Positions 4,656 through 37,761 of a DNA stretch of 64,000 bases are shown in pieces. Positions within the stretch are counted from its first letter, which is position 1. Every line of letters starts with the position of its first letter. This DNA is from Medakamo hakoo (taxonomy: Eukaryota; Chlorophyta; Trebouxiophyceae; Coccomyxaceae). A program made the translations under genes and the position numbers. Location of the stretch: the NCBI GenBank assembly GCA_026636295.1, contig CP089455.1:124001-188000 (forward strand). The letters run 5' to 3'. The notes under the pieces are model-generated. The model made no database searches, was not told the origin of the DNA, and saw only the letters and a list, made by a program, of their open reading frames with translations.

Positions 4656-4852
4656 GGAGGGGCGCAGGGGGTTGCAAAAACACACACGCGCGCGCGCCCC
4701 TCCCTCTCCACGGCCCTCCCCGCCGCAAAAACAAAACACACGACGACTGACACCCCCGCCGTCCCACTCCCTCACGGCACACCTCGCCACGTGTGTCTCT
4801 CTTAAATGTCAATCCCGCCCTCCTCTGACCTCACCTCTCACCCCTCGGCGCC

Positions 4853-5446: not shown

Positions 5447-5477
<31 letters not shown>

Positions 5478-5968
5478 AGGGACGAAGGAGCGGCGGCGCC
5501 AGTCGCCGCGCTGCTGCCAAACAGCGAGTCGGTCGAGAAGATCTGAGGGGGTGTGGGGGTGTGGGTGGGGTGCGAGGGGTGGAGGGGGTGGTGGTCGAGG
5601 GCGGGGGTGGGTTGAGGAGTGGACTCCTCGGGTGCCGCATCGCGCGCCGAGTTGAAAACTGCCCGCCGTTGGTTTCTCGTTCCGGGACGCCCGTTCCAGG
5701 GGGTTCACCGCCGCCAACGCCCCACGTCTGCGTGGAGGCAGCCTCCTCCTTCCCGGAACATGCCGCAAAACGGGACTTGAGATCCCTTCACACGGCTGCG
5801 CGCACCCCGACTGCCTTCTGTCGGCCCGCGCGCCCGGCCCCGTCTCTCAGTTCACACCTTGCTCCACGACGACTGGGCCCGGGACGCGCCACCCCCACCC
5901 TGCTGGGCGCGGGACACAGCCGGGGCCAGGGCCGCCCACACGCGGGCCAGGGCGCCGTGGCGAGACAT
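4853..5968 (-). CDS. Two-HMG-box protein with organelle-type presequence (TFAM/ABF2-like)
   Basis: Two exons read on the minus strand, 5968-5858 and 5542-4853, for 266 residues. Exon 1 encodes MSRHGALARVWAALAPAVSR and more: a basic, Ala/Ser-rich stretch without acidic residues, typical of a mitochondrial (or plastid) presequence. After a Thr/Ala-rich linker and a Lys-rich patch (KKAPKKTAV) come two HMG-like boxes, the first from RAPSAYNLFVKGPE and the second from PPSPYARFVAANF through GAQWRSMTPSAKAAY. Two HMG boxes behind a presequence is the layout of mitochondrial nucleoid packaging proteins TFAM and Abf2. Assignment to the nucleoid is inferred. A nuclear HMGB is the alternative if exon 1 is wrong. 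Its 3' end faces the ankyrin gene across 197 bp. Confidence 0.7.
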
Positions 5969-6058
5969 GAGGTGGGGTGTGGAGACTGGGGAGTGTTTCT
6001 CTTTTTTTCGTCGCTCGAGTTTCCGTTGAGCGTCTGTCTGCCTGCACCACCCGCCCCC

Positions 6059-6085
6059 ACCCACCCACCCACCCACCCACCCACC
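6059..6085 (+). repeat. (ACCC)n microsatellite
   Basis: About seven ACCC units followed by a CT-rich run (6085-6109) in the 137 bp between the 5' end of the HMG-box gene and the 3' end of the TFIIF beta gene. The CT-rich run reaches the TFIIF stop codon. Confidence 0.85.
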
Positions 6086-6105
6086 CTCACCCTCTCTCTC
6101 TCTCT

Positions 6106-7179
6106 CTACGTCCGGTACTCCCGCTTCAGCTCCCACGTCTCCTTGTGCGGCCCCCGCTGGTTGTACACCGCAATGTCCTTGAGCACCTCCTTCACCCAGG
6201 GCGCCGGCTGCCCCGCGGCCCGGTGCAGGGCCGCGAAAGACCAGTGCGCCTGGCGCTCGAAACACTTGAAGAGCGCCGCCTCCAAGCCCGCCCGGTCGCC
6301 GCGCACGCGCCGGCCTTCCGCCGCGGCCGTGCGCTGGGCGCGGCGGTCGCGGGCGGCGGCCCGGGCGGCGGCTGCCGCGGCGGCGGCGGCGCCACGGCCC
6401 ATGACGGCGCCGCCCGCGGCCGGGCCGCCGGCCGCGGCGAGACCCGCGGCCGCGCGGACAGCTCCCGGCGCGGCCGCGCCCACCGCCCCGCCGTCCAGGA
6501 GCACGGCCGCCCGGCGTGGGGCGGCCGACGCGGCAACGGTGCGGGCGCGGGCCAGGGCCGCGTACTCGGCGTCGACGCCGGCTGCCGTGGCGGCGGCGGC
6601 GTTCGCGGCCGTGGACGCGGCGGCTGCCCCGCCACCGGGCACCCGCCGCGGCGCGGCGTCCACCCTCCCCGCCACCCGCCCCTCCGCCGCCGCCACCGCG
6701 GTCGCATCCCCATGCACCGCGCTGAACACGCGCAAGGGAACGCCCGTGTCGGGCGGGGTGCGCAGGTCGAGCAGGGACGGGCCGGCGGGCGCGCCGCCGG
6801 CGGCGCCGCCCGCGGTCGCGAGGCGGAGCGCTGCTGCGGCGGTGGGTGCGGGCGCGCCGCCGCCGCCGTCTTCGCTCGCTCTGACCGCGCTCGCTGGAAA
6901 GGACAGGCTGCCCAACATGGCTGGCGCCGGCCCGCCCGCCGCGATGGCTGCCCGCCATTGCGCCGCGACAAAGGGAGGGACCTGGAGGATGGGTGTGTGT
7001 GGGTGAGCGAGGCGCAATGCCCGTGCGTCGTTTTTTTTTTCCGTGCGCGCGACAGGGATCCCTCACGCCCAACTCACCTTGAGCAGCCAGACGCCGCGAT
7101 CACAGTTACCCGTGTCCAGGGTGGTGGAGGGTGGGGGTGGGGCGGCGGGCGCGGCGGCGCCTTCACCCGGCGCGGCCAT
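6106..7179 (-). CDS. TFG2: Transcription initiation factor TFIIF beta subunit (RAP30/Tfg2)
   Basis: Two exons on the minus strand, 7179-7078 and 6981-6106, joined in phase 0 for 325 residues. The N-terminal dimerisation strand reads LDTGNCDRGVWLLK, then VPPFVAAQW across the splice, as in RAP30. The C-terminal winged helix is clear: LFKCFERQAHWSFAALHR, QPAPWVKEVLKDIAVYN and a final ELKREYR. In between is a long Ala-rich, probably flexible region. TFIIF beta binds RNA polymerase II and TFIIF alpha and stabilises the preinitiation complex in the nucleus. The start is fixed by the short distance to the conserved GVWLLK. It is divergent from the secreted-protein gene at 7511. Confidence 0.9.
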
Positions 7180-9517: not shown

Positions 9518-9814
9518 GGGGGGGGGGGGGGAAGGGGGGGTGAGCCTCTCCCCATCCTTGAACTTTTCCCCATCTCGCGCCTTGAGCACGCGGGTCCGCC
9601 CCAGCCGCCCCGGTGCGATCCGCGCACTGCGAGGGCGCCGGTGCCGGCGCCGCCTGCTTATTTTGTTTGGCGCGAGAGTCGTGTCCCATGCATTGCCGTG
9701 TTCGTGTTTTCCCATTGTTATTGTGTCTATACTCTCCCCACAGGTCGAGCGTGTTTTTTTCTGCATGTGCACACCAGTCCTCCCCCTGTCTCTCTCCTCC
9801 CGCGGCAGCAGGAA

Positions 9815-12601
9815 ATGCCGTCCCGCCGCCCGCGGTCCCGCAGGCGACAGGCTGCCGTTGCCCTGGCCGTCGCGGCCTGGGCGGCCGCCCTGTCTCGGTT
9901 CGGCGGGGGCCGGGAGGCGGGCGCGGTCCTCAGTGCGTTGCGCGCCGATGCCGACGGCGCCGACGCCGACGACCGCCCTCTCCTTCCACCACCACCCGCG
10001 GCGTACGCACATGTGGGGCGACGACCCCAAATGGAAGACCACGTGGCAGTCCAGACAGAGCACGCCGCATTCTTGGCCGCTGTCATCGACGGCCATGAAG
10101 GGAATGGCGTGGCGGCGACCGTCGCGGCGGCCCTCCTGCCCGCGACGGCCGCCGCGCTCCGGGCGCGGGCGACGTCCTGGCCGTGGCGGGCCGCGGCCGC
10201 CCTCATTCCCGGCGCCGCCCGCGTGGCCGTCGACCGCTCCCTCCGCGACGCAGCAGCCGCTGTAGATGCCGCCACGCGCGGCGAAACCTCCGGCGCGACG
10301 GCGGCGTGGGCGGTGGTGGTGGGCGGGCGCGCGGCCGTCGTCGCGTGGGTCGGCGACGCGGCCGCCATCCTCTGCGACGCGTCCTCCCCCACCGCCGCCC
10401 GCCTGCTCACGCGCGACCACTCTCTGGCCGACCCGGAAGAAGTGCAGAGGACGGGCGGCACACCCGGCGGTCGCCTGGCGGGCGAGCTGGCCGTGACGCG
10501 CGCGTTTGGCGACGCGGCCTACCGTCGCGCTGGCCTCACCGCCACGCCCGGCGTCGCGTGGGTGGAGGAGCGCCCGCACGCCGCGTCCGCCTTGCTCCTG
10601 GTGACGGACGGCGCGCTGGAGGCCGCCCAGCCGGCTGCCCTGTGCCGGGCGGTGCTGGGCGGGCGGGCGGGCGACCCGGCCGCCGCGCTCGCGTCGGCGG
10701 GGCGGCGGGCGATCGCTGTCGGCGGCGAGGTCGTCGGGCCCCCCGCGCCGCGTCGCCGCCCGCCGCCCGCCGCGTCGGTGGAGGAGGAGGCCGGCGCGGG
10801 CGGCGACGCCACCACCCCAGCCGGCGCTGCAGCTCGCGCCGCTGTCTGCGCTGCCCTGGCGTCCGGCAGCGGCGACAACGTGGCCGCCGCCGTGCTGCCG
10901 CTGGCCGGGTGGGAGGCCGGCGTGCGGGCGGCTGGGCGGGCCGACCAGCTGCTCGCCACGAGCGGCGCCGTGCGCGGCTACGCCCTGACCGCCCGCCTGC
11001 CGCGCGCGCCGCGACCAGCCGGACGCTCGCGGCAACGGACTGGATGGTGGCGGCGGTGGCGGGCGGCGGGGACGGAGCCGTCCACGTCCCTCGCCCTCAC
11101 CCGCTCGTCCGCGCTCCAGGCCGCAGCGGTGGGCGGGGGCGCAGGCGGCGTGTGCTCGCCGCTGCTGTCGCCGTCTGCCGCTGCAGCCGCCGCCGCCGCT
11201 GCCGCCGCCATCCCGCTGGACAGCGCACCACCTGCGCTGCCCGCGTCGGCCGCGGACGCGACGTCGCGGGCGTTGGCGGCCGTCGTCCAGGCCGCCGCGG
11301 CCGCGCGCGGATTTTTCTTCGGTGGCAGCGGAGGTGGCGGGAAGGCAGGCGGCACAGCCGCCCCTTCCGACACACCTTTTGCGTTGGGCGGGTCCGCCGA
11401 AGTCTTCCGTGCGACGCGCGCCGGCCGGCCCTACGTCCTGAAACACATGCACGGCCCGGGCGCGGCGGCCGCGGCCGCGCGCGAGGCCGCGTTTGGGCGG
11501 CTGTTCCAGGGCCTGCGCCACCCGGGCGCCGCCCACCTCGCCCGCCTGGTCGAGTCCTTCGAAGACGCGTCGTCCAGCTCGCACTGGCTGGTGTTCGAGG
11601 ATGAGGGCGCGTCCCTGGCGTCGTTGATGTACGTGCCGCTGGGCGGCGGCGGCAACGGGACGGACGACGACGGCCCGCCGCCCCACACCACGGCCGGCGC
11701 GCCTGTCGGCCTCTCCCCCTGGTGGAGGGCGGCCACCTCGCCTGGGGCGACCGCCGGCGCACCCCCACCGGCGCGTGACCTGCTGCGCCAGCTGTTTACA
11801 GCGCTCGACGCACTGGCGGACGCGGGCGTCGCGCACAGAGACGTGAAACCCGCCAACCTGCTGGTGTCGTCGACGAGTGACGGCGGAGACGGACGGACGC
11901 TGACGCTGCGCCTGGCCGACTTTGGGTCCGCGATTGGAGGCGGCATCGGCGGCGGCGGGGAGCCTGCCGCCGACGCAGGCGCGGCCATGACGCGGGAGTA
12001 CGCGCCGCCCGAAGCCCGGCTGGGCGCGGGCGCGGCGGCGGGGCTGGGCGGCGGTGGGGCTGCGCGTGGTGGGCCGGGGCCGCCGCCCGCCCACCCGCTC
12101 ACCGCTGGCGACGCCTGGGCCGCCGGCGTGACCATGCTGGAGCTGCTGGCTGGCTTGCCCGACCCGACGGCGCCCTCCCCACGCGGCGCGGCCGCGCTGC
12201 GCGCCCGGTTCTCTTCCAGCGGCGGCGGGCGCGCCAGCAGGGAGGCCGCCGCCCAGCTCGACGCCGCGCTCGCGCTTCGCGGTCTCATGGAGCTGTGCGC
12301 TTATCCGCCCAGGGGAGGTGGTGGCGGGGACGATGCGGCCGGCGGCCCTGCCCTGCCCTGGGCGTGCACGGATGGTGCGGTCGCGGCGCACCTGGCGGGC
12401 CGGGCGGGCGCGGAGGTGGGCGGGCGCGGGCGCTCGCCCCACCCGCCCATCCCGCTGCCGGCTTTGAGGCTGGCCCGCTCTTTGTTGAGCTGGGATCCAA
12501 GGGCGCGGCCGACGCCGGCGCAGGCCCTGCGCCACGCCTACTTCACGCGGACGGACGGGGCGTGCAGCGGGGTGGACAGGGAGGTGGACGGGTGGTGTTG
12601 A
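9815..12601 (+). CDS. PP2C phosphatase - protein kinase fusion
   Basis: Single exon, 928 residues. A hydrophobic segment follows an Arg-rich N terminus (RRQAAVALAVAAWAAAL), so the protein is probably anchored in or sent across a membrane. The PP2C domain (roughly 60-370) keeps its metal-binding motifs: RRPQMEDHV, DGHEG near 92, TDGALEA and GSGDNVAAAVL. The kinase domain (roughly 525-910) has a degenerate glycine loop, YVLKHM, HRDVKPANLL near 674, ADFGSA and an APPEA segment, so it looks catalytically competent. Plants encode proteins joining these two domains, and the layout here (phosphatase first) is like Arabidopsis At3g63340. The ATG at 9815 is the first one followed by a plausible N terminus; an untranslated first exon ending in CAG just before it cannot be excluded. 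The substrate is unknown. Confidence 0.85.
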   Translation: MPSRRPRSRRRQAAVALAVAAWAAALSRFGGGREAGAVLSALRADADGADADDRPLLPPPPAAYAHVGRRPQMEDHVAVQTEHAAFLAAVIDGHEGNGVAATVAAALLPATAAALRARATSWPWRAAAALIPGAARVAVDRSLRDAAAAVDAATRGETSGATAAWAVVVGGRAAVVAWVGDAAAILCDASSPTAARLLTRDHSLADPEEVQRTGGTPGGRLAGELAVTRAFGDAAYRRAGLTATPGVAWVEERPHAASALLLVTDGALEAAQPAALCRAVLGGRAGDPAAALASAGRRAIAVGGEVVGPPAPRRRPPPAASVEEEAGAGGDATTPAGAAARAAVCAALASGSGDNVAAAVLPLAGWEAGVRAAGRADQLLATSGAVRGYALTARLPRAPRPAGRSRQRTGWWRRWRAAGTEPSTSLALTRSSALQAAAVGGGAGGVCSPLLSPSAAAAAAAAAAAIPLDSAPPALPASAADATSRALAAVVQAAAAARGFFFGGSGGGGKAGGTAAPSDTPFALGGSAEVFRATRAGRPYVLKHMHGPGAAAAAAREAAFGRLFQGLRHPGAAHLARLVESFEDASSSSHWLVFEDEGASLASLMYVPLGGGGNGTDDDGPPPHTTAGAPVGLSPWWRAATSPGATAGAPPPARDLLRQLFTALDALADAGVAHRDVKPANLLVSSTSDGGDGRTLTLRLADFGSAIGGGIGGGGEPAADAGAAMTREYAPPEARLGAGAAAGLGGGGAARGGPGPPPAHPLTAGDAWAAGVTMLELLAGLPDPTAPSPRGAAALRARFSSSGGGRASREAAAQLDAALALRGLMELCAYPPRGGGGGDDAAGGPALPWACTDGAVAAHLAGRAGAEVGGRGRSPHPPIPLPALRLARSLLSWDPRARPTPAQALRHAYFTRTDGACSGVDREVDGWC

Positions 12602-16743: not shown

Positions 16744-18288
16744 TCAAGCGTGCGCACGGACGGCCCCGCCCTCCACCGCCCCACCCCGGCTGGTCTCCCC
16801 GCCCGCGCCGTACGGCAGGAACGCCGGCCGGCTCTTCAGCCCCAGCGCCCCAAACAGCGCCGCGTCGTCGTCGCGGTCGGCGTTGGCCGTCGTCAGCAGC
16901 TTGTCGCCGTCGAAGACGGAGTTGGCGCCGGCCAGGAAGGCGAGCGCCTGGTCGCCCGGCGACAGCTCTTTGCGCCCCGCGGACAGGCGGACGACGGAGG
17001 CGGGCATGACGATGCGGGCGGTGGCCACGCACCGCACGATGTCCAGCCCGCTCGGCGGCGGGGCGCCCTCCAGCGGCGTCCCCGGCACGGCGACGAGCGC
17101 GTTGATGGGCACGGACTCCGGGTGGGCCGGCAGCGTGGCCAGCGTGTGCAGCATGCCCACCCGGTCGGCCGGGCCCTCGCCCAGGCCGATGATGCCGCCC
17201 GCGCACACCGACACGCCCGCGCCCTGGACAGCCGCGAGCGTGGCCAGGCGGTCGGCGTACGTGCGCGTCGTCGACACCTTGCCGTAGTACTCCGGGCTCG
17301 TGTCCACGTTGTGGTTGTAGGCCGTCAGCCCCGCCTCCCGCAGCTGGGCCGCCTGCTCGGGCGTCAGCATGCCGAGCGTCGTGCAGACCTCCATGCCCAG
17401 GCCCCGCACTTTCTTGACCATGGCCAGCACGCGCTCCCACTGGCGGGGCCCCACCTGGGACGGGCCCCGCCAGGCGGCGCCCATGCAGAAGCGGGTGGAG
17501 CCCGCCGCCTTAGCGCGCACCGCGGCGTCGTACACGGCGTCCAGGTCGACCAGCCGCTCGGCGCGGAGGTCGACGCCCTTGTGGTGGGACGACTGGGAGC
17601 AGTACCCGCAGTCTTCCGGGCAGCCGCCGGTCTTGATGGACAGCAGCGTGCACCGCTGCACCATGGCCGGGTCGTGGTGGGCGCGGTGGACGCGGGCGGC
17701 GGCGAAGGCCAGGTCCAGGAGCGGGGTGTCGTAGACTTCGGAGATTTCGGCGCGGCTGGGGGTGCGCGTTTGTTGGTGGAGGGGAGGGGAGGGGAGGGGT
17801 GAGGGGTGAGGGGGGGGGGGGGGGGGGGGGGAGTGGGTGGTGGCTGCGGCGAGGCAGGGGGCCCAAAGCGGGGCGTGGCGCGATGAGAGGGCGGCCTTTT
17901 TTGCGCGTTCCCGTCTTCGGCGTGGGGCGTGGACATGCCAGAGCACGCAGGCGTGTCGTGCATTGGGCCAAAGGGGGCCTGCGCGGCGCAGGGCGGCCGG
18001 CCGAAGCAGGGGGCTTGCCCGGCATCGCCGCCCGCCGACCCTAGCCGCACAACTCTCAACGCACGTCCAGTCGTTGCGGATGACGCCCAGCTCCCGGAGC
18101 CAGCGCGGTTTTTGGGTGGAAGCTTCCGCGTGCACTTCCTCGATCGGCTCCGGAACGGCGGGCGGGGCGGATGGCGGGGCCGAGCCGGCCGTGAAGGCGC
18201 GGGTGGTGGTCGTCGCGGCGGCCGCGGGCGGGCCGTCCGCCGCCCGCAGCCAGCGGGCGCCCAGCGTTGCCAGGGAGCGGCGGTGCAT
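16744..18288 (-). CDS. BIO2: Biotin synthase
   Basis: Two exons on the minus strand, 18288-18065 and 17755-16744, 411 residues. It is the radical SAM enzyme that inserts sulfur into dethiobiotin, the last step of biotin synthesis. The cluster ligands are C120, C124 and C127 in GGCPEDCGYC. Other conserved blocks are RNDWTRAEISEVYDTPLLDL (across the intron), RFCMGAAWRGP, YNHNVDTSPEYY, SVCAGGIIGLGE and PINALVAVPGTPL. The first ~50 residues (MHRRSLATLGARWLRAA onward) are basic and Ala/Ser/Thr-rich, fitting mitochondrial import, where plant and fungal homologues work. The 309-bp intron contains a 22-base C-run in the transcript. It is divergent from the unknown gene at 18761 and belongs to the biotin locus. 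Confidence 0.95.
   Translation of the reverse strand: MHRRSLATLGARWLRAADGPPAAAATTTTRAFTAGSAPPSAPPAVPEPIEEVHAEASTQKPRWLRELGVIRNDWTCVESCAARVGGRRCRASPLLRPAALRRAGPLWPNARHACVLWHVHAPRRRRERAKKAALSSRHAPLWAPCLAAATTHSPPPPPPPHPSPLPSPPLHQQTRTPSRAEISEVYDTPLLDLAFAAARVHRAHHDPAMVQRCTLLSIKTGGCPEDCGYCSQSSHHKGVDLRAERLVDLDAVYDAAVRAKAAGSTRFCMGAAWRGPSQVGPRQWERVLAMVKKVRGLGMEVCTTLGMLTPEQAAQLREAGLTAYNHNVDTSPEYYGKVSTTRTYADRLATLAAVQGAGVSVCAGGIIGLGEGPADRVGMLHTLATLPAHPESVPINALVAVPGTPLEGAPPPSGLDIVRCVATARIVMPASVVRLSAGRKELSPGDQALAFLAGANSVFDGDKLLTTANADRDDDAALFGALGLKSRPAFLPYGAGGETSRGGAVEGGAVRAHA
17810..17831 (+). repeat. 22-base G homopolymer in the biotin synthase intron
   Basis: An unbroken run of 22 G on the plus strand, preceded by GGGGA and GGGGTGA tandem units from 17780. 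In the transcript this is a C-run with CCCCT units shortly before the 3' splice site, acting as the pyrimidine tract. Its length may be inexact because of sequencing slippage. Confidence 0.9.
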
Positions 18289-18760
18289 TGGTGAGATTGA
18301 AGGAGGGGGACGGCGTGCTCCCGGGCGGACAGGAATGTGGGGCTGGGAGCGCGCGGCACGGCGCCGGGAAGAGAGAGAAAACACAAGGCCGGAGTGAGAG
18401 CACACATGCGAGAGGTCGGGCGGCCCCGGCCGGCCCTGGGGCCACACCGGTGCGCGCGTGCACAGAAGCCAACCACTGTCGCGCCAGGGGGCCCAGCTCA
18501 CGGCCGAGCCGGCCCGCCTCCTCGCCTGCAACTCCCGCAGACTCACCAGGGTGGCTGTTGCATTAGCTGGTGAGGAAATTGGGCGCGGGGGCGGCCCTGA
18601 CGCTCGCTGGTGTCGGCGCGCCCGGCGTGCGAGGGAGGCCATTGCCTCGCACGCGCGCCCCGTGCACCACGGCATGTGGCCTCCCTCCCTCTCATTTCCG
18701 CCATCCCCACCACCACCCCACCCCCTCCCGTTACGTCATCCCCAGGCGCCCACGCCACAC
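18289..18760. promoter_or_regulatory. Divergent upstream region in the biotin locus
   Basis: 472 bp between the starts of biotin synthase (minus) and the unknown gene at 18761 (plus). It should hold both promoters. I compared it by eye with the region between the two other biotin genes (25888-26339) and found no convincing shared motif longer than a few bases. No TATA box was seen. Confidence 0.45.
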
Positions 18761-19747
18761 ATGCCCTTCAAAGCCTTGCGCCGCAGCGCACTGTTTGTCT
18801 GGCGCGTCCTGGCCGCCGTCCTCTTGGCGCCCCTCAACGACCGTGGCGGCGGCGGGCGCGGCGGCGCGCCCACCGACGCTGCGGCCTGGTCCCTCGCCGC
18901 GCTCGCCCGCCTGGCGCCGCCGCCGCCGGCCGTCGAGGCGCCGCCGCCGCCACCGTCGCCGCCGCCGCCGAAAGAAGCCGACGCGGCCGTGACGGTGACG
19001 GCGACGACGGCGCGCCCCCCTCCCCCCAAAACGCCGCCACCGCCGCCCGCCCGCAGGCCGGGCGGCCGCCCGGACTGGAGTGCGACCATCGCCGCGTCCG
19101 ACTTCGAGGCCTTCCTGGCCGCCTTCAACGACGGCGCGCGCCTGGCGGCCGCCCAGTCCACCGCGCCGGAGCTGTCCAACCTGGCCGTCTCGCCCTGGGT
19201 GGAGTGGCGCGGCGGCGGCGGCGGGGGCGGGGGCGGCCCGCCGCCGCCGCCGCCCACGCCTATCCCAGGCGGCCCGGCCCCAGGCACGCCCGGCTGCGCG
19301 CCCCCCCCTCCGTCCACGCCGGCCTTCCGACTCATGACCTTCACCCCACGCGGCGTGCGCTGGCTGCCCATCGCCGTGCGTGCGGTCGGCACCAACCACC
19401 TGTCGCCGCGGGCGCTGGGGCAGCCCGCTGTGATGGTTGGGAGCGCGGCCGTGGCCTGGGGGCGCGGCGGACGCCTCACCAAACTCGTGACGTCCACCAT
19501 GGTCGCGTCGCCTGACGCGCCAGCCTCGGCAGTCACCCTGGAGCTGTGGTGCGCGCCGTCGCTGCCGGCGTGGCTGGGGCGCCTCGCCCGTGGCGCGGTC
19601 GTCAACATGAGTGGGGCCTTTGCCCGGCGGAGCGCGGAGGCAGCGGCGGGCGCGGTGGGTGGGAGGCTGGTGAGCTGTGGGAAAGGGGGGACCGGGTTGG
19701 TGGCGGGCGGTGGGGAGGGTGCGGCGGCGGCCGCGGCGGCGGCGTGA
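18761..19747 (+). CDS. Unknown protein within the biotin locus
   Basis: Single open frame of 328 residues from the ATG at 18761. The N terminus is basic then hydrophobic (MPFKALRRSALFVWRVLAAVLLAPL), suggesting a membrane anchor or an organelle signal. A Pro-rich linker of about 80 residues follows. The C-terminal ~200 residues look folded: DWSATIAASDFEAFLAAF, FRLMTFTPRGVRWLPIAVRAVG, TKLVTSTMVASP and a final helix near RGAVVNMSGAFARRSAEA. The strand-rich body followed by a long C-terminal helix recalls START/SRPBCC lipid-binding folds, but I cannot place it in a family. Its position between biotin synthase and a lipid-type hydroxylase is the only functional hint. The tail is Gly/Ala low complexity. 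Confidence 0.6.
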   Translation: MPFKALRRSALFVWRVLAAVLLAPLNDRGGGGRGGAPTDAAAWSLAALARLAPPPPAVEAPPPPPSPPPPKEADAAVTVTATTARPPPPKTPPPPPARRPGGRPDWSATIAASDFEAFLAAFNDGARLAAAQSTAPELSNLAVSPWVEWRGGGGGGGGGPPPPPPTPIPGGPAPGTPGCAPPPPSTPAFRLMTFTPRGVRWLPIAVRAVGTNHLSPRALGQPAVMVGSAAVAWGRGGRLTKLVTSTMVASPDAPASAVTLELWCAPSLPAWLGRLARGAVVNMSGAFARRSAEAAAGAVGGRLVSCGKGGTGLVAGGGEGAAAAAAAA

Positions 19748-20102
19748 AGGGGGAGGGGCCTAGGGGGTGGGCGGGAGGGGGGTGGGCGCAGGGTGCAAAA
19801 CAGACGCGGGCCGGGGCGACAGGGAGAGAGCGCGAGCGACGCCACTCACTCGCACATTCTGTTTCGCGGCCGCCGGCCACGCGCGCACGCCCAGGCACGC
19901 ACCCGCGCCCCTTTAGCTGTAGGCTAGGACCCTGTAGGCAGTCAGCGCGCCGCGAGACGTGGCCGGAGGACGAGCCCGTCCGGTGGTGCCGCCCGTCGTT
20001 TGTGCGTGCGCCGCTAGCCGACACAGGAGCCGCCGCGGCCCGCGACACGGACGCGCGCGCTCCGCGTCCGCCACTTTTTTGCTCGGGTCCCCACAACAAC
20101 AG
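19748..20102. other. Tandem intergenic region
   Basis: 355 bp between the stop of the unknown gene and the start of the hydroxylase gene on the same strand: a 3' UTR, then a promoter. A short imperfect inverted motif lies at 19918-19937 (GCTGTAGGCTAGGACC). No gene seen. Confidence 0.4.
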
Positions 20103-21360
20103 ATGGAGCTCTACGGCGGCGGCTTCCTCGCCGCCGTGACGCAGGTCGCATTGGTCTACTATGGCATCAGTGCGATTCTGCACTACGGCGTGCCCGCGGT
20201 GGTGGACGTCACCTCGATCCAGGCGAGTGTTTTTTCTCACAGGGTTTGGGCCCGTTCTTCTTTTTTCGCGGCGGACGAGGAAAGGCCAGTCGTGAGTCCC
20301 CGCCCCGCCCCCTCACACCCCACTGTCCCCATCCCCCACTCCGCCTCACAGGTCCAGGAGCGCCACGCCGGCCAGGTGACGCGCGAGTGCTTGTGGGCGG
20401 TCGGTGAGTTGTGTGAGCGGGGCCGCAGGCCGGAGGAGCGCCTTGCGACGACGCGCGCCATTCCCTTCTTGCCCACCCGGCCGACGTGGTGGTGGAGCCA
20501 CCCCCCCCCCCCTCACCACAACCAACCAAAAAAAAAACGCCTCCCGCACCGCAGGCCCCATCGCCGTCAAAGCCGCCGTCCTGACCATCGTCGAGAAACT
20601 GGCCGCCGCCGGCGCGGGCAAGCTGTACGCCGGGCCCATCAACACAGCCGGAGGGTGGGCGTACGCGGTGCTCACCATCGCCGCGCTCGACCTGCTGCAC
20701 GACGCCTGGTTTTACTGGACGCACCGCGCGCTCCACTCCCGCCTGCTGTACAAACCGATCCACGCCATGCACCACAAGTCCGTCGCGCCCACCGCGTTCA
20801 CGGGCTACTCTTTCCACGTGGCGGAAGCGGCGATCGTCTTTGCGAACGAGATCCTCGTCTGCTTCCTCTTCCCCATTCACGCGGGCCTGCACCGGGCGTA
20901 CCACCTGTTCACGACCATCATCCACAACGGCGGCCACGCCGGCTACGAGATCGCGCCCTTCATCCCGTCCGTCCAGCAGCTGGCCTGGGTCCTGGCGGGC
21001 CGGGGCGGCCACCCGGCCGCGCTGACGACCGTCGCGCACCACGACCTGCACCACCGCTTCCCGACCCGCCACTTTGCCCTCTACTTCACGCACTGGGACC
21101 GGTGGCTGGGGACGGAGCACCCGGCGTACAGTGCCGGGGTCGAGGCGCGGGCGGCGGCGGGGCGGGGCGACGGGCGCAAGCCGGAGGCGGGCGGGCGTGC
21201 CTTGCCTTGTGGCAAGGCGGACGCGGCGGCGCGCCGCCTGGGCTCGTCGTCGCCCCAGGACGGCGACAAGATTGGGGCGTGGCGTGGGGACGCGGCGGAC
21301 GCGGGGCCGGCCAGCCCGCGCGGCGTGGCGCGGCGGGCGGCGGCGGTGGGCGGGGCGTGA
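20103..21360 (+). CDS. Fatty acid hydroxylase / sterol desaturase family membrane enzyme
   Basis: Three exons: 20103-20222, 20352-20403 and 20555-21360 (325 residues). It is a di-iron membrane oxygenase with the histidine boxes HRALH, HAMHH and HHDLHH, which bind the two irons, plus an upstream HDAWFYWTHR segment. Hydrophobic helices precede and separate the boxes. The first intron starts with GC instead of GT (CAG|GCGAGT), which is accepted because the joined reading TSIQ-VQERHAG keeps frame and the next splice also agrees in phase. The substrate could be a sterol precursor or an acyl chain; the boxes do not decide. Sitting among biotin genes, a role in supplying or trimming an acyl precursor is conceivable but is inference. 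The C-terminal ~80 residues are Ala/Gly-rich and divergent. Confidence 0.85.
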
Positions 21361-21521
21361 AGGAGGGAGGCGTGGCTGTGAAGAAACGAACCGAATTTTT
21401 TTTTCCTGTTTCCCCAGGGCTGGGTTGTGTCCATCCCTGCCCAGCGCCCTCACACCTCCAACCCGCGACCCTCTGTCTCACGGGCCCCCCCCTCCCTGAA
21501 AGCCAACCCACCCGAAATCCC

Positions 21522-22880
21522 ATGCGCCGCACGCTCGCCCGGGCGTCCGCGTCCTCTTCGAGCGCGGCGGCGGCGCGCGGTGGGTCGCGCCCCCCTCGGC
21601 GGCCGTCTGCGGCCACTGGGAGCGGCAGCAGCACGACTGGCCCTGCCGCTCCTGGCCCGTCGTCTTCGTCCGCCGCCCTCCCCTCTGCCGAGGCCTCCGC
21701 CCCCGCCTCCTGCCGCCGGGTCGTCCCTCTGCGCGAATACAGACGCAACGTTGGCGTGTGCCTCGTCAACGACGCCGGTCTGGTCTTCGCGGCACGGTGA
21801 GAGAGTGTTTGCTCGCATTGTCGAGCGCGCCCCAGGCGCTCCCGTGCGTGCGTGCCGAGAGCGGCAAAAAAATGCCACGCCCGGTTTGGAGGCCTGGGCG
21901 TGGGGTCGGACGGCTTGGCGGGTCCAGGCCGCGTAGCCCGGGTCCCGCACCACCTCCCAGAAGCGTTGGTTTGCGGCCTGTGCCCCTCCACCCCGTCCCT
22001 TTGCGGCGGGCGAGGCACCAGGGCATTGCCGCGCGCGCAGCCAAAAACAAACGCGAAGAAAGGTTCCCGTCCGCGCGCCCGGCCTCTCACCAGCGACCGC
22101 CCCACCCCCAAACTCCACCAGGCGGACGGATTGTACCCAGGGCAGCTGGCAGATGCCGCAGGTGAGCAGCGTGTGGGTGGGAGAAGGCTGACGGAGAGAG
22201 AGAGGGGGCGAACGAGAGGAGCGCCGAGAGGCAGCAGCGTGAGACGACGCGCGGGCCCTCCCACCGCCCACCCACCCCACCCCGTCGCCCATCCCATCCC
22301 CCCCTCCCCACCCCCTCCCTCGAAAAAAAAACAGGGCGGCATCGACCACCTCGAAAACCCGCTCGCCGCCGCCGCCCGCGAGCTGCGCGAGGAGACGGGC
22401 ATTGTCTCTGCGCGGACGGTGGCCATCGGCGCGGCGTGGACGGCGTACGACCACCCGACGGTCGTCCCCGTGTCCGAGGCGCGCGCGGCTCCGTGCGAGC
22501 CGCCCCCGCCGTCGCCCGACGCGTCGGAGCCGGAGGGCATGCTCCTGACGCGCGCCGGCATCTGGTCCCCTTCCGGCGGCGCGTCGCCGTCGTCCTCCCA
22601 CGCCGCCAACAACATTGTGCCGACGCACGTGCAGTACCGCGGCCAGACGCAGAAGTGGGTGCTCATGCGCTTTTACGGCCCGGAGTCCGAGATTTGCTTG
22701 GGCGACCCGTCCCACCCGGACACGGCCTTCTCCGCGTACGCCTGGATGCGCCTGGACGAGCTCGTGCGCGGCGCCGTGCCGTTCAAGCGGGACACGTACG
22801 CGGCGGTGGCGGCGGAGTTTGGTCCCCTCATCGACGCGTGGGCGGGGCGGGCGGACGCAGACTGGTGGGCGCGGCGGTGA
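21522..22880 (+). CDS. Nudix hydrolase, organelle-targeted
   Basis: Three exons: 21522-21796, 22122-22161 and 22335-22880 (286 residues). The short middle exon encodes RTDCTQGSWQMPQ and joins VFAAR to GGIDHLENP, rebuilding the classic start of the (di)nucleoside polyphosphate/RNA pyrophosphohydrolase group. The Nudix box follows: GG at the start, then RELREETGI. The first ~70 residues are Ser/Ala/Arg-rich and look like a plastid or mitochondrial transit peptide. A 30-residue Ser/Pro-rich insertion interrupts the fold after YDHPTVVPV. Relatives cleave Ap4A, ppGpp or 5' triphosphates; plant Nudix 26/27-type enzymes are the nearest match in layout. It lies tail-to-tail with BIO3-BIO1. Confidence 0.85.
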
Positions 22881-23109
22881 TGGGTTTGTGTGGACGGCGC
22901 GGCGTAACAACGAGCGGCGCGGCGTGGGGGGGGGACCCACCTCCGCTCGCGGGAGCGGCTCCGTGGGGACTGAGCCAGGGATTCTTGTGGGCGTCCGGGA
23001 GAGGGAGGGCAGGGCGGGGCCGGGGCCACACACCGAGAAGAACCAAGCCGTTTTGTCGCTTGCAAAAACCAAACCCAGGCACCCCTTTTTTGTTTTTCCA
23101 TGGGGCGCA

Positions 23110-25887
23110 TCACGCAAGGCACTCCAGCAACGCCGCCTGCAGGCGGGGGCCGTCCCGCCCTGGGACGCTCGTGGGCGTGAGCATGAGGTACAGGACGTCG
23201 CCCAGCGGCCGGGCGTAGACGCCCCAGGCGGGCGCGGGCGCGGGTCCGCCACTCCCACTCCCTCCACCACCACCGCCACCACCACTGCTGCTGCTGCTGC
23301 CCTCCCTCAACCGCGCGGCCACGCCCGCCGCGGCCGTCGACCCGTACCCGGACGTCTCCGCCCGTAGTTGGACGGCGAGCACGGTGCCGATGGCGGCGAC
23401 GCGGGCGACGGACGGGTGGTCGGCCAGGGACGCCGTCAGGCGGGCGTCCCACAGCGGCGCGAGGCGGCCGCACCCGCGCCCGCCCGGGGCGGTGCACGCC
23501 GCGGACGGGGCCTCGCAACACCCGGCCCGCCCCGGCGCGCACACCGCCGGATTCGCGGCCGGGTCGGTCACGACCGCCGCCGTTGCCGCAGCAGCCGCGC
23601 ACCCGGCCGCGTGCGCGGAATATGAGTGGCCGTGGAGCAGGGCGCCCGCCAGGCCGCTGGCGGTGAAGGCGTCGAACACCGCGGCCGTCGCGAGCGTGGC
23701 CGCCAGCGGCACCGCCCCGCCCGTCAGCAGTTTCGCGTAACAGCCGATGTCCGGGGTGAGGCCCAGCAGGGCGCAGCCGGAGACGGCGCCCAGCCTCCAC
23801 AGCCCGGTGAACACCTCGTCCGCGACGACGGGGATGGAGCGGGACCGGGCGGCGCGCACGAACGCGGCGTGCCAGGCCGGGTCGACACACACCATGCCGC
23901 CCGCGCCCATCAGCACCGGCTCGAACAGCGCCGCCGAGAGGGTGGGGCGGGTGTCCCCGCCGCGTCCGCGCTCGTGCTCGTCGATGGCAGAGCCGATGGC
24001 CGCCTCGTACGCCGCGGACTCCGGTCCGGACAGCCGGTCGGGCGAGAACAGGCCGGCCAGGCCGCCTGGGATGGGCGTCGGCGCGCCGCGCCCATCCCGG
24101 ACCACCCACCCCGCCCCGCGCCCCTCCATCCCGGCCGTCGGCGGGTCCAGGAACAGCCCCCGCCCCGCGTACCAGGGCGTCTGGGCGTCGCCGTTGAACA
24201 GGGAGGGCGCGGTCGCGCACATGGCGCCGAGCGTGTCGCCGTGGTAGCCGCCGGCCACGGCCAGGACGGTCGCTTCGACGGGCCTTCCTCCTCCGCCGCC
24301 GCGCCCGCCCTCGGCCGCGGCGGCGGCTGCCCGCCGCCCCGCCGACGCCCGGAACGCCATCTTCAGGCCGACCTCCACTGCCGTCGAGCCGTCGTCGGAG
24401 AAGAACACACGCCCGGCCCAGCCCGCCCCGGGGCCGGACAGCAGGGACTCGGCTGCCGCGAGCACGGGCGCGGCCGCGGTCCGCGGGTGGATCACGTGAC
24501 CGTACCGCCCGATGGCCGCCCCCACCGCCAGCGGCAGGAGGGGGGAGCCGGCCGGCCCCGCCACGCCCTGCGTCCACCAGGCGGCGCAGCCGTCGTACAG
24601 CGGGGTGAGGGACGGCGGCGGGGGGTGCTGCGGGTGCGCGGCGCCGCCCCCCCCGCGCACACTGCCGCCGTCGCCGCCGCCGCGCCCGCCGCCCTCACTC
24701 CACGTCAGCAAGTGTTCGCCCGCCCGGGCGTCGATGGTCGTCACGGTCGCCGGATCCAGCCCCGACCCGTGCTGGGTGAAGGGGAACCAGAGCTTGGAGG
24801 ACGTCGCCGGCGCCAGCGCCGCCAGGCCGGTCAGGCGGCGGGCGTGGCGGCCCAGCAGGTCGTCCACCATCGCACCGAGCTCTGGCCGCGCCGCCGCCAG
24901 CCAGGCGGCCAGGGCGGGGTCCGGCGCGCCGGGCGCCGCGTCGTCGTCGTCGACCCGGCGGCCGCACGGCGGCAGGACAAACAGGCGGGGCGGGGACGAC
25001 CCGAGCGGGTCGGCCGCGCCGCCCGCGGCGCGCGCCAGGATTGCCAGGTGCCGCTCCAGCGCCGCCACATGGCCGGGCGGCAGCCCGGCCTCCGGCTGGA
25101 CGAGGGCGACGGCGCCGGGCGGGCCGTGGCCGCGCAGGGCGAGGGCTTCGGCGGCAGCCAGCGTGGACGACACGCCGCCCAGGCGGGGTGAGGCGACCAG
25201 GACCGGCGGCAGGCGCAGGGGCCGCCACGCGTCGGCTTGCAGGCTGCCGGACGGCCCGGGCGACGCCGGCCCGCCCGCGGTCTCGACCAAGCAGAGCGTG
25301 CGGGGGTGGCTTGGCAGCGCCGCCAGCGCGGCCGCCGTGGCGGACGCCACCTGGTCGTCACTCACGCCCCTGCCCTCGGCCTCCACCGCCGCGCACGGCG
25401 CGGCGGCCAGGCGCCAGCCGAAGAGGGTGGTCGCGGTGCCGGGTGCGTGCGGCAGGGGCTGGCCCGCCACCCCGGCGCCGCCGCCCTCTGGCACCAGTTC
25501 CGCCGCGTGCGGGCCTGTGCAGAGCCTCAGCCCCGCCGCGGCCGCGACGGTGCCCGCGTCGGAGTCGGCCGGCCACCCCGTCTGCACTGGTTTTATGTAC
25601 GCCACGCCCAGGCCACGCGCGTGTACAGCCGCGGACGCGAGGCCGGCCGACACAAGCGTCTTGCCGACGTCCGTGTCGGCGCCCCAGACGGCAAACGTGG
25701 GGTGCGACAGAGGGATGGAGGGTGGGGGTGCGGTCGTGACAGGCGCCGCGCATGCGCCTGTGAAGTCGGCCGTGCCGGGCGGTGGGAGCGGGGTTTTACT
25801 GGCGTCGACGGTTGATGTGAATGCCCGTCGCCAGGTCAGGGCGTGTGCGTGCCAGTGCCGGAGCAGTGAGCGGGCGCGGGCGACCAT
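23110..25887 (-). CDS. BIO3-BIO1: Bifunctional dethiobiotin synthetase / DAPA aminotransferase
   Basis: Intronless, 925 residues. The N-terminal half is dethiobiotin synthetase (BioD): P-loop GADTDVGKT at 69-77, YIKPVQTG and ETAGGPASPGPSG. The C-terminal half is 7,8-diaminopelargonic acid aminotransferase (BioA): PFTQHGSG, DGCAAWWTQG, FFSDDGSTAVEVGLKMAF, GGYHGDTLGAM, VVADEVFTGLWR, and the PLP lysine K719 in YAKLLTGG. It converts KAPA to DAPA and DAPA to dethiobiotin. The fusion order D-then-A matches the mitochondrial enzyme of plants and fungi, and the Arg/Ser-rich N terminus (MVARARSLLRHWHAHALTWR) fits a mitochondrial presequence. It is divergent from KAPA synthase across 452 bp. Confidence 0.95.
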   Translation of the reverse strand: MVARARSLLRHWHAHALTWRRAFTSTVDASKTPLPPPGTADFTGACAAPVTTAPPPSIPLSHPTFAVWGADTDVGKTLVSAGLASAAVHARGLGVAYIKPVQTGWPADSDAGTVAAAAGLRLCTGPHAAELVPEGGGAGVAGQPLPHAPGTATTLFGWRLAAAPCAAVEAEGRGVSDDQVASATAAALAALPSHPRTLCLVETAGGPASPGPSGSLQADAWRPLRLPPVLVASPRLGGVSSTLAAAEALALRGHGPPGAVALVQPEAGLPPGHVAALERHLAILARAAGGAADPLGSSPPRLFVLPPCGRRVDDDDAAPGAPDPALAAWLAAARPELGAMVDDLLGRHARRLTGLAALAPATSSKLWFPFTQHGSGLDPATVTTIDARAGEHLLTWSEGGGRGGGDGGSVRGGGGAAHPQHPPPPSLTPLYDGCAAWWTQGVAGPAGSPLLPLAVGAAIGRYGHVIHPRTAAAPVLAAAESLLSGPGAGWAGRVFFSDDGSTAVEVGLKMAFRASAGRRAAAAAAEGGRGGGGGRPVEATVLAVAGGYHGDTLGAMCATAPSLFNGDAQTPWYAGRGLFLDPPTAGMEGRGAGWVVRDGRGAPTPIPGGLAGLFSPDRLSGPESAAYEAAIGSAIDEHERGRGGDTRPTLSAALFEPVLMGAGGMVCVDPAWHAAFVRAARSRSIPVVADEVFTGLWRLGAVSGCALLGLTPDIGCYAKLLTGGAVPLAATLATAAVFDAFTASGLAGALLHGHSYSAHAAGCAAAAATAAVVTDPAANPAVCAPGRAGCCEAPSAACTAPGGRGCGRLAPLWDARLTASLADHPSVARVAAIGTVLAVQLRAETSGYGSTAAAGVAARLREGSSSSSGGGGGGGGSGSGGPAPAPAWGVYARPLGDVLYLMLTPTSVPGRDGPRLQAALLECLA

Positions 25888-26339
25888 TTTGTTTGCGTCG
25901 ACGGCCGCGGCCCCAACGAATGCCTAGTAAAAAACACGGACGGCTGCGGCACGCACGCCCGCGTACGATGCTGTCCAGCTGGCTGATCAGAACCAGACTT
26001 TAGCAAGTGAGTTACGGGATGGGAGACGGCATGGGACTCAACGAGCGCAATTCTCGCCTTGCGGAGCGGAAACAAGACGAAAGTGGGGAGTGAGTCGTGG
26101 TCGGCCAAACAAGCCATCGACGCAGCGGCGGCCGGGCGCGCTTTCTTCGCCGCCACGCCACCACGCCCACAGCCTTTTCCCGTGACGTTCCTGGCTCCCT
26201 GGCGGGCGCGAGTGATACCTCGACTAGCCCAACGCGCAGTGCATTCCGATAAAACTGCGAGCAGCCCACCGCACGCAGCCGTTTTTTGTTTGCCGACCGC
26301 ACAAAAACGCTGCGGCGGGGGCCACAAGCCGCACAGAGG
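25888..26339. promoter_or_regulatory. Shared upstream region of BIO3-BIO1 and KAPA synthase genes
   Basis: 452 bp between the two start codons, which point away from each other. It is visibly less GC-rich than the flanking coding DNA, with AT-containing stretches at 25925-26010 and 26270-26310. This arrangement would allow joint regulation of consecutive pathway steps. No known biotin-responsive element was identified. Confidence 0.5.
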
Positions 26340-27866
26340 ATGGAGCCCCGCCCGCCGCCCTGGGCCTCCCGGTCGGGCGAGCCCAGCTCGTCAGGCGGCA
26401 CACACGCCACCCCTCCACACGGCGGCGGGGCCGGCCTTCCCGGGCCCTGGGCCCCCTGGCTGGACGGCGCGCTCCACTCGCTCTCGGCCGCCCACCTGCT
26501 CCGCGAGCTCCGCCCCGTCGACCCCGTCTCCTCGTCCGCGACGACGGTGACCGTGCCGCCGGCCGTCCTGGCGGACTGGGTGGCAGCCTCGACGGGCGGG
26601 TTGGGCGTCAGGGCGGTGGAAGGGAGGGGCGAACGCGCCGGCGTCGCGCCCAACCCGACCTCGGTCGGCCTGGGTGCGGGCACCGCGGCGCACCACCCGC
26701 CGCCGCCGCCCGCTCCCACGCCGTCGCTCGTCCGCCTGTTCTCCACCAACGACTACCTGGGCCTGTCCGCGCACCCAGACGTGCGCGCAGCAGCGGCAGC
26801 GGCGGCGGCGGCCGTGGGGTGCGGCCCCCGGGCGTCCGCCCTCGTCCCTGGGGGCTACACCCGCGCCGCGGCAGAGCTCGAGGCCGGCCTGGCCGCCCTG
26901 AAAGGCACGCCGTCCTGCCTGCTTTTTTCGTCGGGCTACGCCGCCAATGCCGCCGTCCTGGCCGCGCTCGCCTCGGGGCCGGGCGCCGCCATCTTCTCCG
27001 ACGCCCTCAACCACGCGTCGATCGTGGACGGCGCGCGCCTGGCCGCCCGCACGGGCGCGGCGCTCACCGTCTTCCCGCACCGGGACTTGGGCGCGCTGGA
27101 CGCGGCGCTGGGCGCCTGCCCGCCCGGCAGCCGCAAGCTCATCATCACTGACTCGCTCTTCTCCATGGACGGCAGCTTCGCCGACCTGGCGGGCCTGGCC
27201 CGCCTGAAAAGGAAGCACGGCGCCCTGCTGGTGGTGGACGAGGCGCACGCGACGCTGGTGTGCGGCCCGACCGGCGGGGGCGTCGCCGAAGCGGCCGGCG
27301 TGTCGGCCGACGTCGACGTGCATGTGGGCACGCTCTCCAAGGCCTTTGGCGCGCACGGCGGCTTTGCCTGCTGCTCGGCCGGGCTGCGGGCGCTGCTGTT
27401 GAATGCTGGGCGGGCGTTTGCGTTCTCGACCGCGCTGCCCGCGCCCGCGGTCGCGGCCGCCACCGCCGCCCTGCGCGTCGCGACGGTGACGGAGCCGTGG
27501 AGGCGGGACCGCGTGTGGGCGCACGTGGCGCGGTTGGGCGCGGCGCTGGGCGACGCGCCGGCCGATTTCAAGGCGGCCGGGTACGGGCGGCTGGACGACG
27601 ACGACGAGGGGGGTGGCCGTCGTGCGGCGCGTTCGCCCATCGTGCCCATCATCCTGGGATCCGAAGCCCGGGCCCTGGCTGCGAGCGGGACCCTGCTGGC
27701 CCGGCACGGCCTGCACGTCCCCGCCATCCGCCCTCCCACCGTGCCGCAGGGGACGGCCCGGCTGCGTGTGTCGCTGTCCGCTGCGCACACGGCGCAAGAG
27801 GTGGAAGGCCTGATCAGCGCGCTGGTGGCGGAAGGTCTGGCGCCCGGCGGGCGCGGGAGGCTGTAA
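26340..27866 (+). CDS. BIO4: 8-amino-7-oxononanoate (KAPA) synthase
   Basis: Intronless, 508 residues. It is a PLP enzyme of the alpha-oxoamine synthase family that condenses a pimeloyl thioester with alanine to give KAPA, the first committed step of biotin ring assembly. Motifs are FSTNDYLGLSAHP, GYTRAAAELEAGLAALKG, FSSGYAANAAVL, SDALNHASIVDG, ITDSLFSMDGSFADL, VVDEAHATLV and the PLP lysine K334 in VGTLSKAFG. This excludes the 2-amino-3-ketobutyrate and serine palmitoyl branches only by context. The first ~110 residues are Pro/Gly-rich and longer than bacterial BioF. The ATG at 26340 is the first in frame. The C terminus is GRL, a non-canonical PTS1-like tripeptide; plant and fungal homologues are peroxisomal. 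Confidence 0.92.
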   Translation: MEPRPPPWASRSGEPSSSGGTHATPPHGGGAGLPGPWAPWLDGALHSLSAAHLLRELRPVDPVSSSATTVTVPPAVLADWVAASTGGLGVRAVEGRGERAGVAPNPTSVGLGAGTAAHHPPPPPAPTPSLVRLFSTNDYLGLSAHPDVRAAAAAAAAAVGCGPRASALVPGGYTRAAAELEAGLAALKGTPSCLLFSSGYAANAAVLAALASGPGAAIFSDALNHASIVDGARLAARTGAALTVFPHRDLGALDAALGACPPGSRKLIITDSLFSMDGSFADLAGLARLKRKHGALLVVDEAHATLVCGPTGGGVAEAAGVSADVDVHVGTLSKAFGAHGGFACCSAGLRALLLNAGRAFAFSTALPAPAVAAATAALRVATVTEPWRRDRVWAHVARLGAALGDAPADFKAAGYGRLDDDDEGGGRRAARSPIVPIILGSEARALAASGTLLARHGLHVPAIRPPTVPQGTARLRVSLSAAHTAQEVEGLISALVAEGLAPGGRGRL

Positions 27867-36071: not shown

Positions 36072-36480
36072 GGGCTTTGCTGTCGGGGGGAGGGATGGAC
36101 GGAGAGAGAGAGTTGGGGAAGGTGGAGGGTCACCCCGAGCGGTTTTTTTTTTTGCTCGCGCGGGTGCCCGCTTGACCATCTCGCTTTCGCGGGGCTCCCC
36201 TCCCTCGCGCACGCTCTCTCTCTCTCTCGCGCGCGCGAGGGTTGACAGCGGGTGCGTGCATGGCGAGGTGAGAGGAAGGAGCGCGGATGCGAGAGGCTTA
36301 CCGTGAGGGCGTGGAAAGCGACGAGAGACCGGATGGAAAAAGAGAGAGAGTGGGGTGTGGTTGGCGCGGCGCGCGGCGCTCGTGCGCGCGCTCTCGAGCG
36401 CTCTGCACTCCTCCCAACTCTTCTCCGTCCATTTCTCTCGGACACAAGCATTCCACGCCCTCGTACAACACACACTCACC
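36072..36480. promoter_or_regulatory. Divergent upstream region of two secreted-protein genes
   Basis: 409 bp separating the Ala-rich secreted protein (minus) from the CAP protein (plus). It contains a (CT)n run at about 36212-36228 followed by CGCGCGCG, and a T-run near 36142. CT-rich blocks like this often lie near plant and algal promoters, but no defined element is claimed. Confidence 0.4.
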
Positions 36481-37761
36481 ATGCGTGGCCGCACCCTAGC
36501 TGCCCTCGCCGCCTTGGCTGCTGTAGCGGCCGTCACGGCCGCTGTGCCGGACAGCGTCGTCCTCCAGCCAGACCCGGGGGGCGGCGAGCGCGGTGCAGGC
36601 TGGGAACACGGCGCCCACCCGTGGAAGCCGCACCGCGTCCTGTCCCAGCCGTTCATCGACGTGCCCGGCGGTGGTGTGTCCTTCCTCGTCCAGCCCGTCG
36701 AAGGCGCGGCGCGTGAGCCGCGTGCCGAGGTCGTCGGCTCGGCGGCCGACAGCGACACTGCACACGGTGTGGCTGCCTCGGCCTCCCACCCGCAAGAAGC
36801 CCCGCCGCCCGCCTCGGCCCGCCCCAAACCGGCCGTGGGCGAACCCGTCAAAGTGGACGCTCCTGGGACCACGGAATTTGACGTGGTCGGCACGGTCCGC
36901 CTGACGCCGCACGGCGGGTCGTTCGGCGGGCGGCGCGCGCGCGGCGGCCCGTCGCCCGCACCCGGCTCGGCTGCTGGCGGCGACGGCGCGTGGGCGTTCT
37001 TGCCGGACTGGCTGATCGACTGGCTGGTGTGGCTGGGCTACCTGCCGCCTCCGCCGGCGCCAGGGCCGCCCGGGCCGTCTCCGTCTCCGCCACCTCCTGG
37101 CCCGTCGCCCTCGCCCTCGCCCAAGCCGACTGTCGCGCCGCCGCCGCCATCGACAACCGGCCCGCCCAAGCCCACGGTGACGGTGCCGCCTGCGACAACG
37201 ACGGCCGTGCCCACTCAGCCGCCGCCGCCGCGAACGACGGCTCCGGGGCCCTCTCCATCCCCACCACCACCTCCGCCGCCGACAACGACGACAGCGGCTG
37301 CGCCTCCGCCTCCGCCGCCTCCGCCGCCGACCACCGTCCCGCCGCCCCCGCCCCCACCCGCCGGCGTGAACGCCACAATCATCCAATTTCATAATGCCTT
37401 GCGCGCGACGCACCACGCACCGCCCCTGACGTGGGACGCGGCCATCGCTGCGACCGCGCAGGCGTGGGCGGACAAGTGCGTCTTCCAGCACTCGCACAAC
37501 GGCTACGGCGAAAACTTGTGCCAGGGCCACGCGACGTGGACGGACTGCATGCAGGCGTGGGCGGACGAAGAGGCGTCGTACGACTACGCCAACCCCGGCT
37601 TCTCTTCCGCGACCGGGCACTTTACGCAGATGGTCTGGGTGGCGAGTCGGACCCTGGGCTGCGGCGTGGCCGCCTGTGCCGGGTCGCCGCTCTATGTGTG
37701 CAACTACTCGCCGCCTGGCAACGTCATCGGCGAGTTTGACACCAATGTGCTGAAGCCTTGA
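36481..37761 (+). CDS. Secreted CAP/PR-1 domain protein with proline-rich stalk
   Basis: Intronless, 426 residues. The signal peptide is MRGRTLAALAALAAVAAVTAA. A ~150-residue N-terminal region without known domains is followed by a Pro/Ser/Thr stalk (about residues 188-298) of the SPSPPPP and PPPTTT type, as in algal hydroxyproline-rich wall glycoproteins. The C-terminal CAP (SCP/TAPS) domain has FHNALRATHHAPPLTWD, CVFQHSHNGYGENL, GHFTQMVW and CNYSPPGNVIGEF. The CAP tetrad residues (two His, two Glu) appear present: H of FHNAL or HHAP, E of YGENL, E of WADEE, H of GHFTQ. A wall-attached or secreted role, perhaps in lipid binding or defence, is inferred from the family. Confidence 0.88.
   Translation: MRGRTLAALAALAAVAAVTAAVPDSVVLQPDPGGGERGAGWEHGAHPWKPHRVLSQPFIDVPGGGVSFLVQPVEGAAREPRAEVVGSAADSDTAHGVAASASHPQEAPPPASARPKPAVGEPVKVDAPGTTEFDVVGTVRLTPHGGSFGGRRARGGPSPAPGSAAGGDGAWAFLPDWLIDWLVWLGYLPPPPAPGPPGPSPSPPPPGPSPSPSPKPTVAPPPPSTTGPPKPTVTVPPATTTAVPTQPPPPRTTAPGPSPSPPPPPPPTTTTAAAPPPPPPPPPTTVPPPPPPPAGVNATIIQFHNALRATHHAPPLTWDAAIAATAQAWADKCVFQHSHNGYGENLCQGHATWTDCMQAWADEEASYDYANPGFSSATGHFTQMVWVASRTLGCGVAACAGSPLYVCNYSPPGNVIGEFDTNVLKP

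Follow-up and report, generated by a model that had tools for sequence, protein, structure and literature searches.

Are the genes of biotin synthesis kept together in the nuclear genome of a green alga? The question is raised by a 64,000-nucleotide stretch of Medakamo hakoo DNA (assembly GCA_026636295.1, contig CP089455.1, positions 124,001 to 188,000; hereafter the window), in which three biotin genes, BIO2, BIO3-BIO1 and BIO4, span positions 16744-27866, or 11,123 bp. The original prediction had grouped these genes within 11.1 kb, with BIO3-BIO1 and BIO4 head-to-head, and had assigned to them every step from the pimeloyl thioester to biotin. We analyzed the identities and the order of the genes, their neighbors and their bacterial relatives.

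The coding sequence of BIO2 (biotin synthase) is on the minus strand (18288 to 16744). It contains a single GT-AG intron of 309 bp (17756-18064), the splicing of which joins WT to RAEISEVYD in frame and gives a protein of 411 aa. This protein scored 347 bits against TIGR00433 bioB, above the equivalog cut-off of 225, and 353 bits against the biotin synthase 1r30 across 311 residues. The CxxxCxxC motif was found as GGCPEDCGYC.

BIO3-BIO1, a fusion of dethiobiotin synthetase (DTBS) and 7,8-diaminopelargonic acid (DAPA) aminotransferase, is encoded from 25887 to 23110 on the minus strand. The BioD part and the BioA part follow each other in a single open frame of 925 aa. The best PDB matches were 4a0g and 4a0f, two forms of the same fused protein (463 and 462 bits), and the next was a stand-alone DAPA aminotransferase with 95.6 bits. 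We take 4a0g to be the Arabidopsis protein. The BioD P-loop (GADTDVGKT) and the BioA lysine motif (YAKLLTGG) are in place. The two halves scored below the cut-offs of the bacterial models (58.9 of 83.3 for TIGR00347 bioD and 176 of 405 for TIGR00508 bioA).

BIO4, encoding a 7-keto-8-aminopelargonic acid (KAPA) synthase of 508 aa, lies on the plus strand at 26340-27866. Its best PDB matches were 8-amino-7-oxononanoate synthases (213 bits). The top NCBIfam model was TIGR00858 bioF, with 342.9 bits; this is below the cut-off of 426.45, and the next model scored 247, 96 bits lower. The same cut-off was missed by the eight bacterial genomes with a fused BioDA that are described below, and was passed in 5 of 14 control genomes. 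The catalytic lysine lies in SKAFGAHGG; the aligned residue of 5vnx is printed as X, which was read as the lysine bound to pyridoxal phosphate. The N-terminal region of about 130 residues does not align with bacterial BioF. Presumably, this extension resembles that of plant KAPA synthases.

These matches bear out the gene identities of the original prediction, and the reading frames are intact in all three genes. BIO4, BIO3-BIO1 and BIO2 together provide all the steps from the pimeloyl thioester to biotin, as had been proposed. BIO3-BIO1 and BIO4 are indeed divergent, and their start codons are separated by 452 bp (25888-26339), presumably a shared promoter region. The G+C content (GC) of this gap is 0.62, compared with 0.77-0.78 in the two genes that flank it. 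When the gap was scanned with bacterial models, which have little bearing on a nuclear gene, no promoter-like site and three terminator-like sites (0.5 expected) were found.

On balance, the locus is probably a eukaryotic biotin gene cluster, in which three native nuclear genes that cover the whole route from the pimeloyl thioester to biotin are kept close. This reading is based on the identities, the order and the intact frames of the genes. As in the Aspergillus nidulans type, three biotin genes (KAPA synthase, fused DTBS/DAPA aminotransferase and biotin synthase) occur in one locus. When pathway genes are required to have no foreign genes between them, which is the strict form that we used, only BIO3-BIO1 and BIO4 qualify, and BIO2 falls outside. 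The arrangement is not that of a bacterial bio operon, with adjacent genes on a single strand, since both strands are used and three genes are interposed.

The probability of such an arrangement was estimated under random gene order, with an assumed number of 6,000 to 15,000 genes. For three given genes to be found in a run of six neighbors, the probability is 1.7e-6 to 2.7e-7, and an adjacent pair alone is expected with 3.3e-4 to 1.3e-4; these are not p-values, because the gene number was assumed and the pathway was picked after it had been seen. For the same reasons, a pair by itself would not be remarkable; the triple is notable.

The surroundings of the locus are eukaryotic. The window has a GC of about 75%, and its eukaryotic genes include those for TFIIF beta, eIF3g, SNF2, RRM and HMG proteins and a malic enzyme. 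The GC at third codon positions (GC3) is 0.91-0.95 in the three biotin genes and 0.86-0.96 in seven other frames of the window, some of which run from stop to stop and are not gene models. By this match, the three biotin genes are at home in this genome. Since their GC3 is within the range of the window and BIO2 carries an intron of the spliceosomal type, they are not fresh bacterial arrivals. A recent transfer of a bacterial operon was rejected on the basis of the GC3, the BIO2 intron and the interrupting genes.

How such a cluster might work can be outlined from known systems. In divergent pairs a bidirectional promoter is possible, and is described as common in yeast; tandem or convergent pairs of related genes are rarer (PMC7653285). 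Transcription of BIO4 and BIO3-BIO1 may start from a common divergent promoter region, the 452-bp gap. BIO2 would be near enough to share chromatin with the pair, and to be inherited or lost together with it. In plants and fungi, KAPA synthase is located in the peroxisome or the cytosol, and the last steps take place in mitochondria (PMC3713238). On this picture, KAPA would be made by BIO4 in the peroxisome or the cytosol, and BIO3-BIO1 and then BIO2 would complete biotin in the mitochondrion. Judged by eye, the N-terminus of BIO2 resembles a mitochondrial presequence, and that of BIO3-BIO1 is rich in Arg.

Eukaryotic precedents are fungal. The original prediction stated that partial bio clusters are known in fungi. 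Fungal clusters do exist, and the word partial understates them: a three-gene nuclear biotin cluster of A. nidulans is in print (PMC7653285). The algal locus is likewise a three-gene nuclear biotin locus; it differs from that cluster in belonging to another kingdom and in the three unrelated-looking genes that stand between the pair and BIO2. In fungi, the biotin genes are bioF, a fused bioDA and bioB (PMC3713238), and bioDA is found across fungi (PMC5639578). A cluster of BioF and BioD/A is described for Fusarium langsethiae (PMC9302093), and a bifunctional enzyme is listed for Phytophthora sojae (PMC2705460). Biotin genes are also clustered in Candida and Saccharomyces, and the Candida BIO clusters were jointly lost in some species; these yeasts possess separate BIO3 and BIO4, for which a bacterial origin is reported, together with BIO5, whereas the alga possesses a fused plant-like gene (PMC2880306). 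The biotin genes of this alga are truly grouped, in a manner already known from fungi.

The Arabidopsis BIO3-BIO1 (4a0g) is also a BioD-BioA fusion, and the aminotransferase part is 42-45% identical to that of the alga. Unlike in the algal locus, Arabidopsis BIO4 and BIO2 lie elsewhere than BIO3-BIO1. The function of the Arabidopsis fused gene is named in PMC3713238.

Several observations weigh against a three-gene cluster. Three genes without a known biotin role (about 18761-22880), which the original prediction had omitted, separate BIO2 from BIO3-BIO1 and BIO4. BIO2 itself has a short divergent gap with one of them, ORF A (open reading frame A), which it faces head-to-head. Since the window is gene-dense, short divergent gaps are ordinary there. 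The 452-bp gap and the upstream region of BIO2 share no 12-mer, and the count of 11-mers common to both is 2 (one word and its reverse complement) against 0.61 expected, a count reached in 42 of 200 shuffles. The C-terminus of BIO4 is GRL, which we take not to be a canonical peroxisomal targeting signal of type 1, the C-terminal signal of the plant and fungal enzymes; this signal, like the other targeting sequences of the biotin proteins, was assessed by eye.

It is therefore possible, if doubtful, that the functional unit is the head-to-head pair of BIO3-BIO1 and BIO4 only, and that BIO2 is close by chance in a compact genome. The interposed genes, the head-to-head position of BIO2 and ORF A, and the lack of an excess of promoter words shared with BIO2 all favor this explanation. 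However, under random order a third pathway gene would lie within four gene steps of a pair in only about 1 in 1,000 cases (a factor of 8/(N-2), where N is the gene number).

The three interposed genes are all on the plus strand, and are most likely bystanders. ORF A (18761-19747; 328 aa), divergent from BIO2, matched nothing in Pfam, and none of its PDB matches had an E value below 0.29. It contains proline-rich stretches. The second, of the fatty-acid-hydroxylase/sterol-desaturase type (20103-21360), showed PF04116 in the frame 20380-21357, and the PDB gave no match for it at E values of up to 1; its start and introns were placed by eye. Its first intron appears to be GC-AG, also by eye. The third (21522-22880; start by eye) has more than one exon and encodes a Nudix hydrolase of the diadenosine tetraphosphate hydrolase/RppH type. 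The best PDB match of this protein was 1f3y (65 bits; next 30), which we take to be a lupin enzyme.

We then come to the bacterial relatives of the three genes. A scan with the BIO1 alignment covered one genome per species in 84,980 species, and the best 80 of 568 relatives were compared. Among these 80, a metagenome-assembled genome (MAG) of Silvanigrellales, L001, showed 39% identity, compared with 24-34% in the other 79, and scored 352 bits against the fused BIO3-BIO1, compared with 164 for the next genome. In L001 (positions 1798-6345), bioB, bioF and a fused bioDA stand in a row. With the L001 BioDA as the query (threshold 1e-50), 58 genomes of the same phylum were searched, and eight of them (L001 and L097-L103; all E <1e-140) contain a full fused BioDA of the eukaryote type. 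In seven of the eight, bioB, bioF and bioDA follow one another in this order on one strand. The exception has its bioB and bioF on a different contig, and neither gene is seen on the 11.3-kb contig that carries bioDA. The BIO1-alignment scan picked up one of the eight fused forms, so that it does not imply absence elsewhere. The L001 query at 1e-80 gave no match in sampled genomes of the Limnobacter phylum (0/249), the Solitalea phylum (0/198) and the phylum of a Parachlamydiales MAG (0/116), where scoring was often limited to 4 or 5 candidates per genome; the same query was positive in the 8 of 58. These eight genomes bear on where the plant and fungal BIO3-BIO1 came from.

Trees were built after proteins shorter than 250 aa (BIO2), 300 aa (BioA part) and 280 aa (BIO4) had been dropped, which left 34 BIO2, 91 BioA and 43 BIO4 rows for comparison. 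The BIO2 and BIO4 rows came from loci drawn mostly via BioA, so that their sampling is accidental. A quick BioA tree contained 46 of the 91 rows, of which 36 others were taken as the first by name; a second, careful tree contained 23 rows, with 13 others picked by hand. The window and Arabidopsis were the only eukaryotes in the trees. For the BioA part, these two group with the eight bacteria with a support of 100/100 in the careful tree and 100 in the quick tree. Within this group, the two eukaryotes stand together in the careful tree (95/86), as do, weakly, the eight bacteria (76/77). The quick tree joins L001 and L099 to the eukaryotes (support 80). In both trees, BIO3-BIO1 is firmly linked to these bacteria.

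BIO2 and BIO4 do not clearly follow it. Among the rows compared, BIO2 was nearest to a BioB of Bacteroidota (58% identity, 393 bits; 49-53% and 279-309 bits for the bacteria with a fused BioDA), and BIO4 to BioF of Holophagaceae (45-48%, 230-248 bits; 25-35% and 75-146 bits for the same bacteria). In the free trees, the neighbor of BIO2 is a group composed mostly of Bacteroidota (support 90), and BIO4 falls among other bacteria (support 87); the two branches are not starred. In the approximately unbiased (AU) test, a tree constrained to unite BIO4 with the seven bacterial rows was not rejected (p 0.53), and its likelihood exceeded that of the free tree by 0.69. For BIO2, the constrained tree was just short of rejection (p 0.053), with a likelihood 9.16 lower.

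Could the locus then be the relic of a bioB-bioF-bioDA operon of the Silvanigrellales type that an early eukaryote acquired and that inversions and insertions subsequently broke up? The activities and the type of fused BioDA are the same, seven of the eight bacteria have bioB and bioF immediately upstream of bioDA in the same orientation, the BioA tree unites the window, Arabidopsis and the eight bacteria, and the AU test does not reject a grouping of the window with the bacterial rows for BIO4 or, by a small margin, for BIO2. However, the bacterial genes are adjacent and on one strand, whereas the algal genes occupy both strands and are interrupted. Furthermore, BIO2 and BIO4 are closer to the BioB and BioF of other bacteria, in identity as well as in the free trees, and a transfer from a eukaryote to these bacteria would likewise explain the fused gene. 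Thus, we consider an operon relic very unlikely. It is highly improbable that the fused BIO3-BIO1 of eukaryotes goes back to a bioB-bioF-bioDA operon held in common with the ancestors of Silvanigrellales-type bacteria, and that the algal locus and the fungal clusters retain a trace of this operon, not having been gathered later by selection.

Viral contigs were also searched. No relative was found there with BIO3-BIO1 alone, BIO4 alone or the BIO1 alignment. The BIO4 alignment gave six loci with BioF-like matches of 36-56% identity, some of them short, and none on an algal contig. Four loci filed as viral (L082, L083, L084 and L085) combine a relative of BIO4 with one of BIO2 and/or BIO1, and are perhaps bacterial flanks.

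PF04116 is a large family with mostly sterol and lipid substrates. The least credible account is that of a larger cluster, with a pimeloyl precursor provided by the enzyme of the fatty-acid-hydroxylase type and perhaps by ORF A as well: the argument is one of position inside the locus, the breadth of the family counts against it, and the bacterial diiron oxygenase BioE, which cuts long acyl chains to the pimeloyl thioester (PMC12915131), is a loose parallel as an iron oxygenase. We retain a biotin gene cluster of three native genes as the preferred reading, and the interpretation given in the original prediction is partly supported.

Across the whole window, the tRNA and Rfam scans at gathering thresholds gave no match. 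Elsewhere in it, two genes with a CAP (cysteine-rich secretory) domain, some 6 kb from each other (36307-37758 and 43736-45094), are perhaps a local duplication. A single open frame at 9518-12598 carries PP2C phosphatase and protein kinase domains, and may be one gene or two. For the malic enzyme, four PDB chains stood at the top with 358-362 bits (next 318), and we take them to be mostly plant enzymes. Like the best matches of BIO3-BIO1 and of the Nudix protein, they are indirect hints of the green lineage.

Biotin gene clusters have been described in fungi; an algal one was not found in the open-licence literature among the matches listed, which is weak evidence of absence. Clustering makes the loss of the biotin pathway in one step easy. 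The green alga Prasinoderma coloniale is reported to be without all four biotin genes; apparently, no other biotin auxotroph was known in Archaeplastida at the time (PMC7455551). If clustering is ancient in some algae, a simple deletion could account for a loss of this kind, and it would become possible to test where the fused BIO3-BIO1, which a few bacteria also possess, came from.

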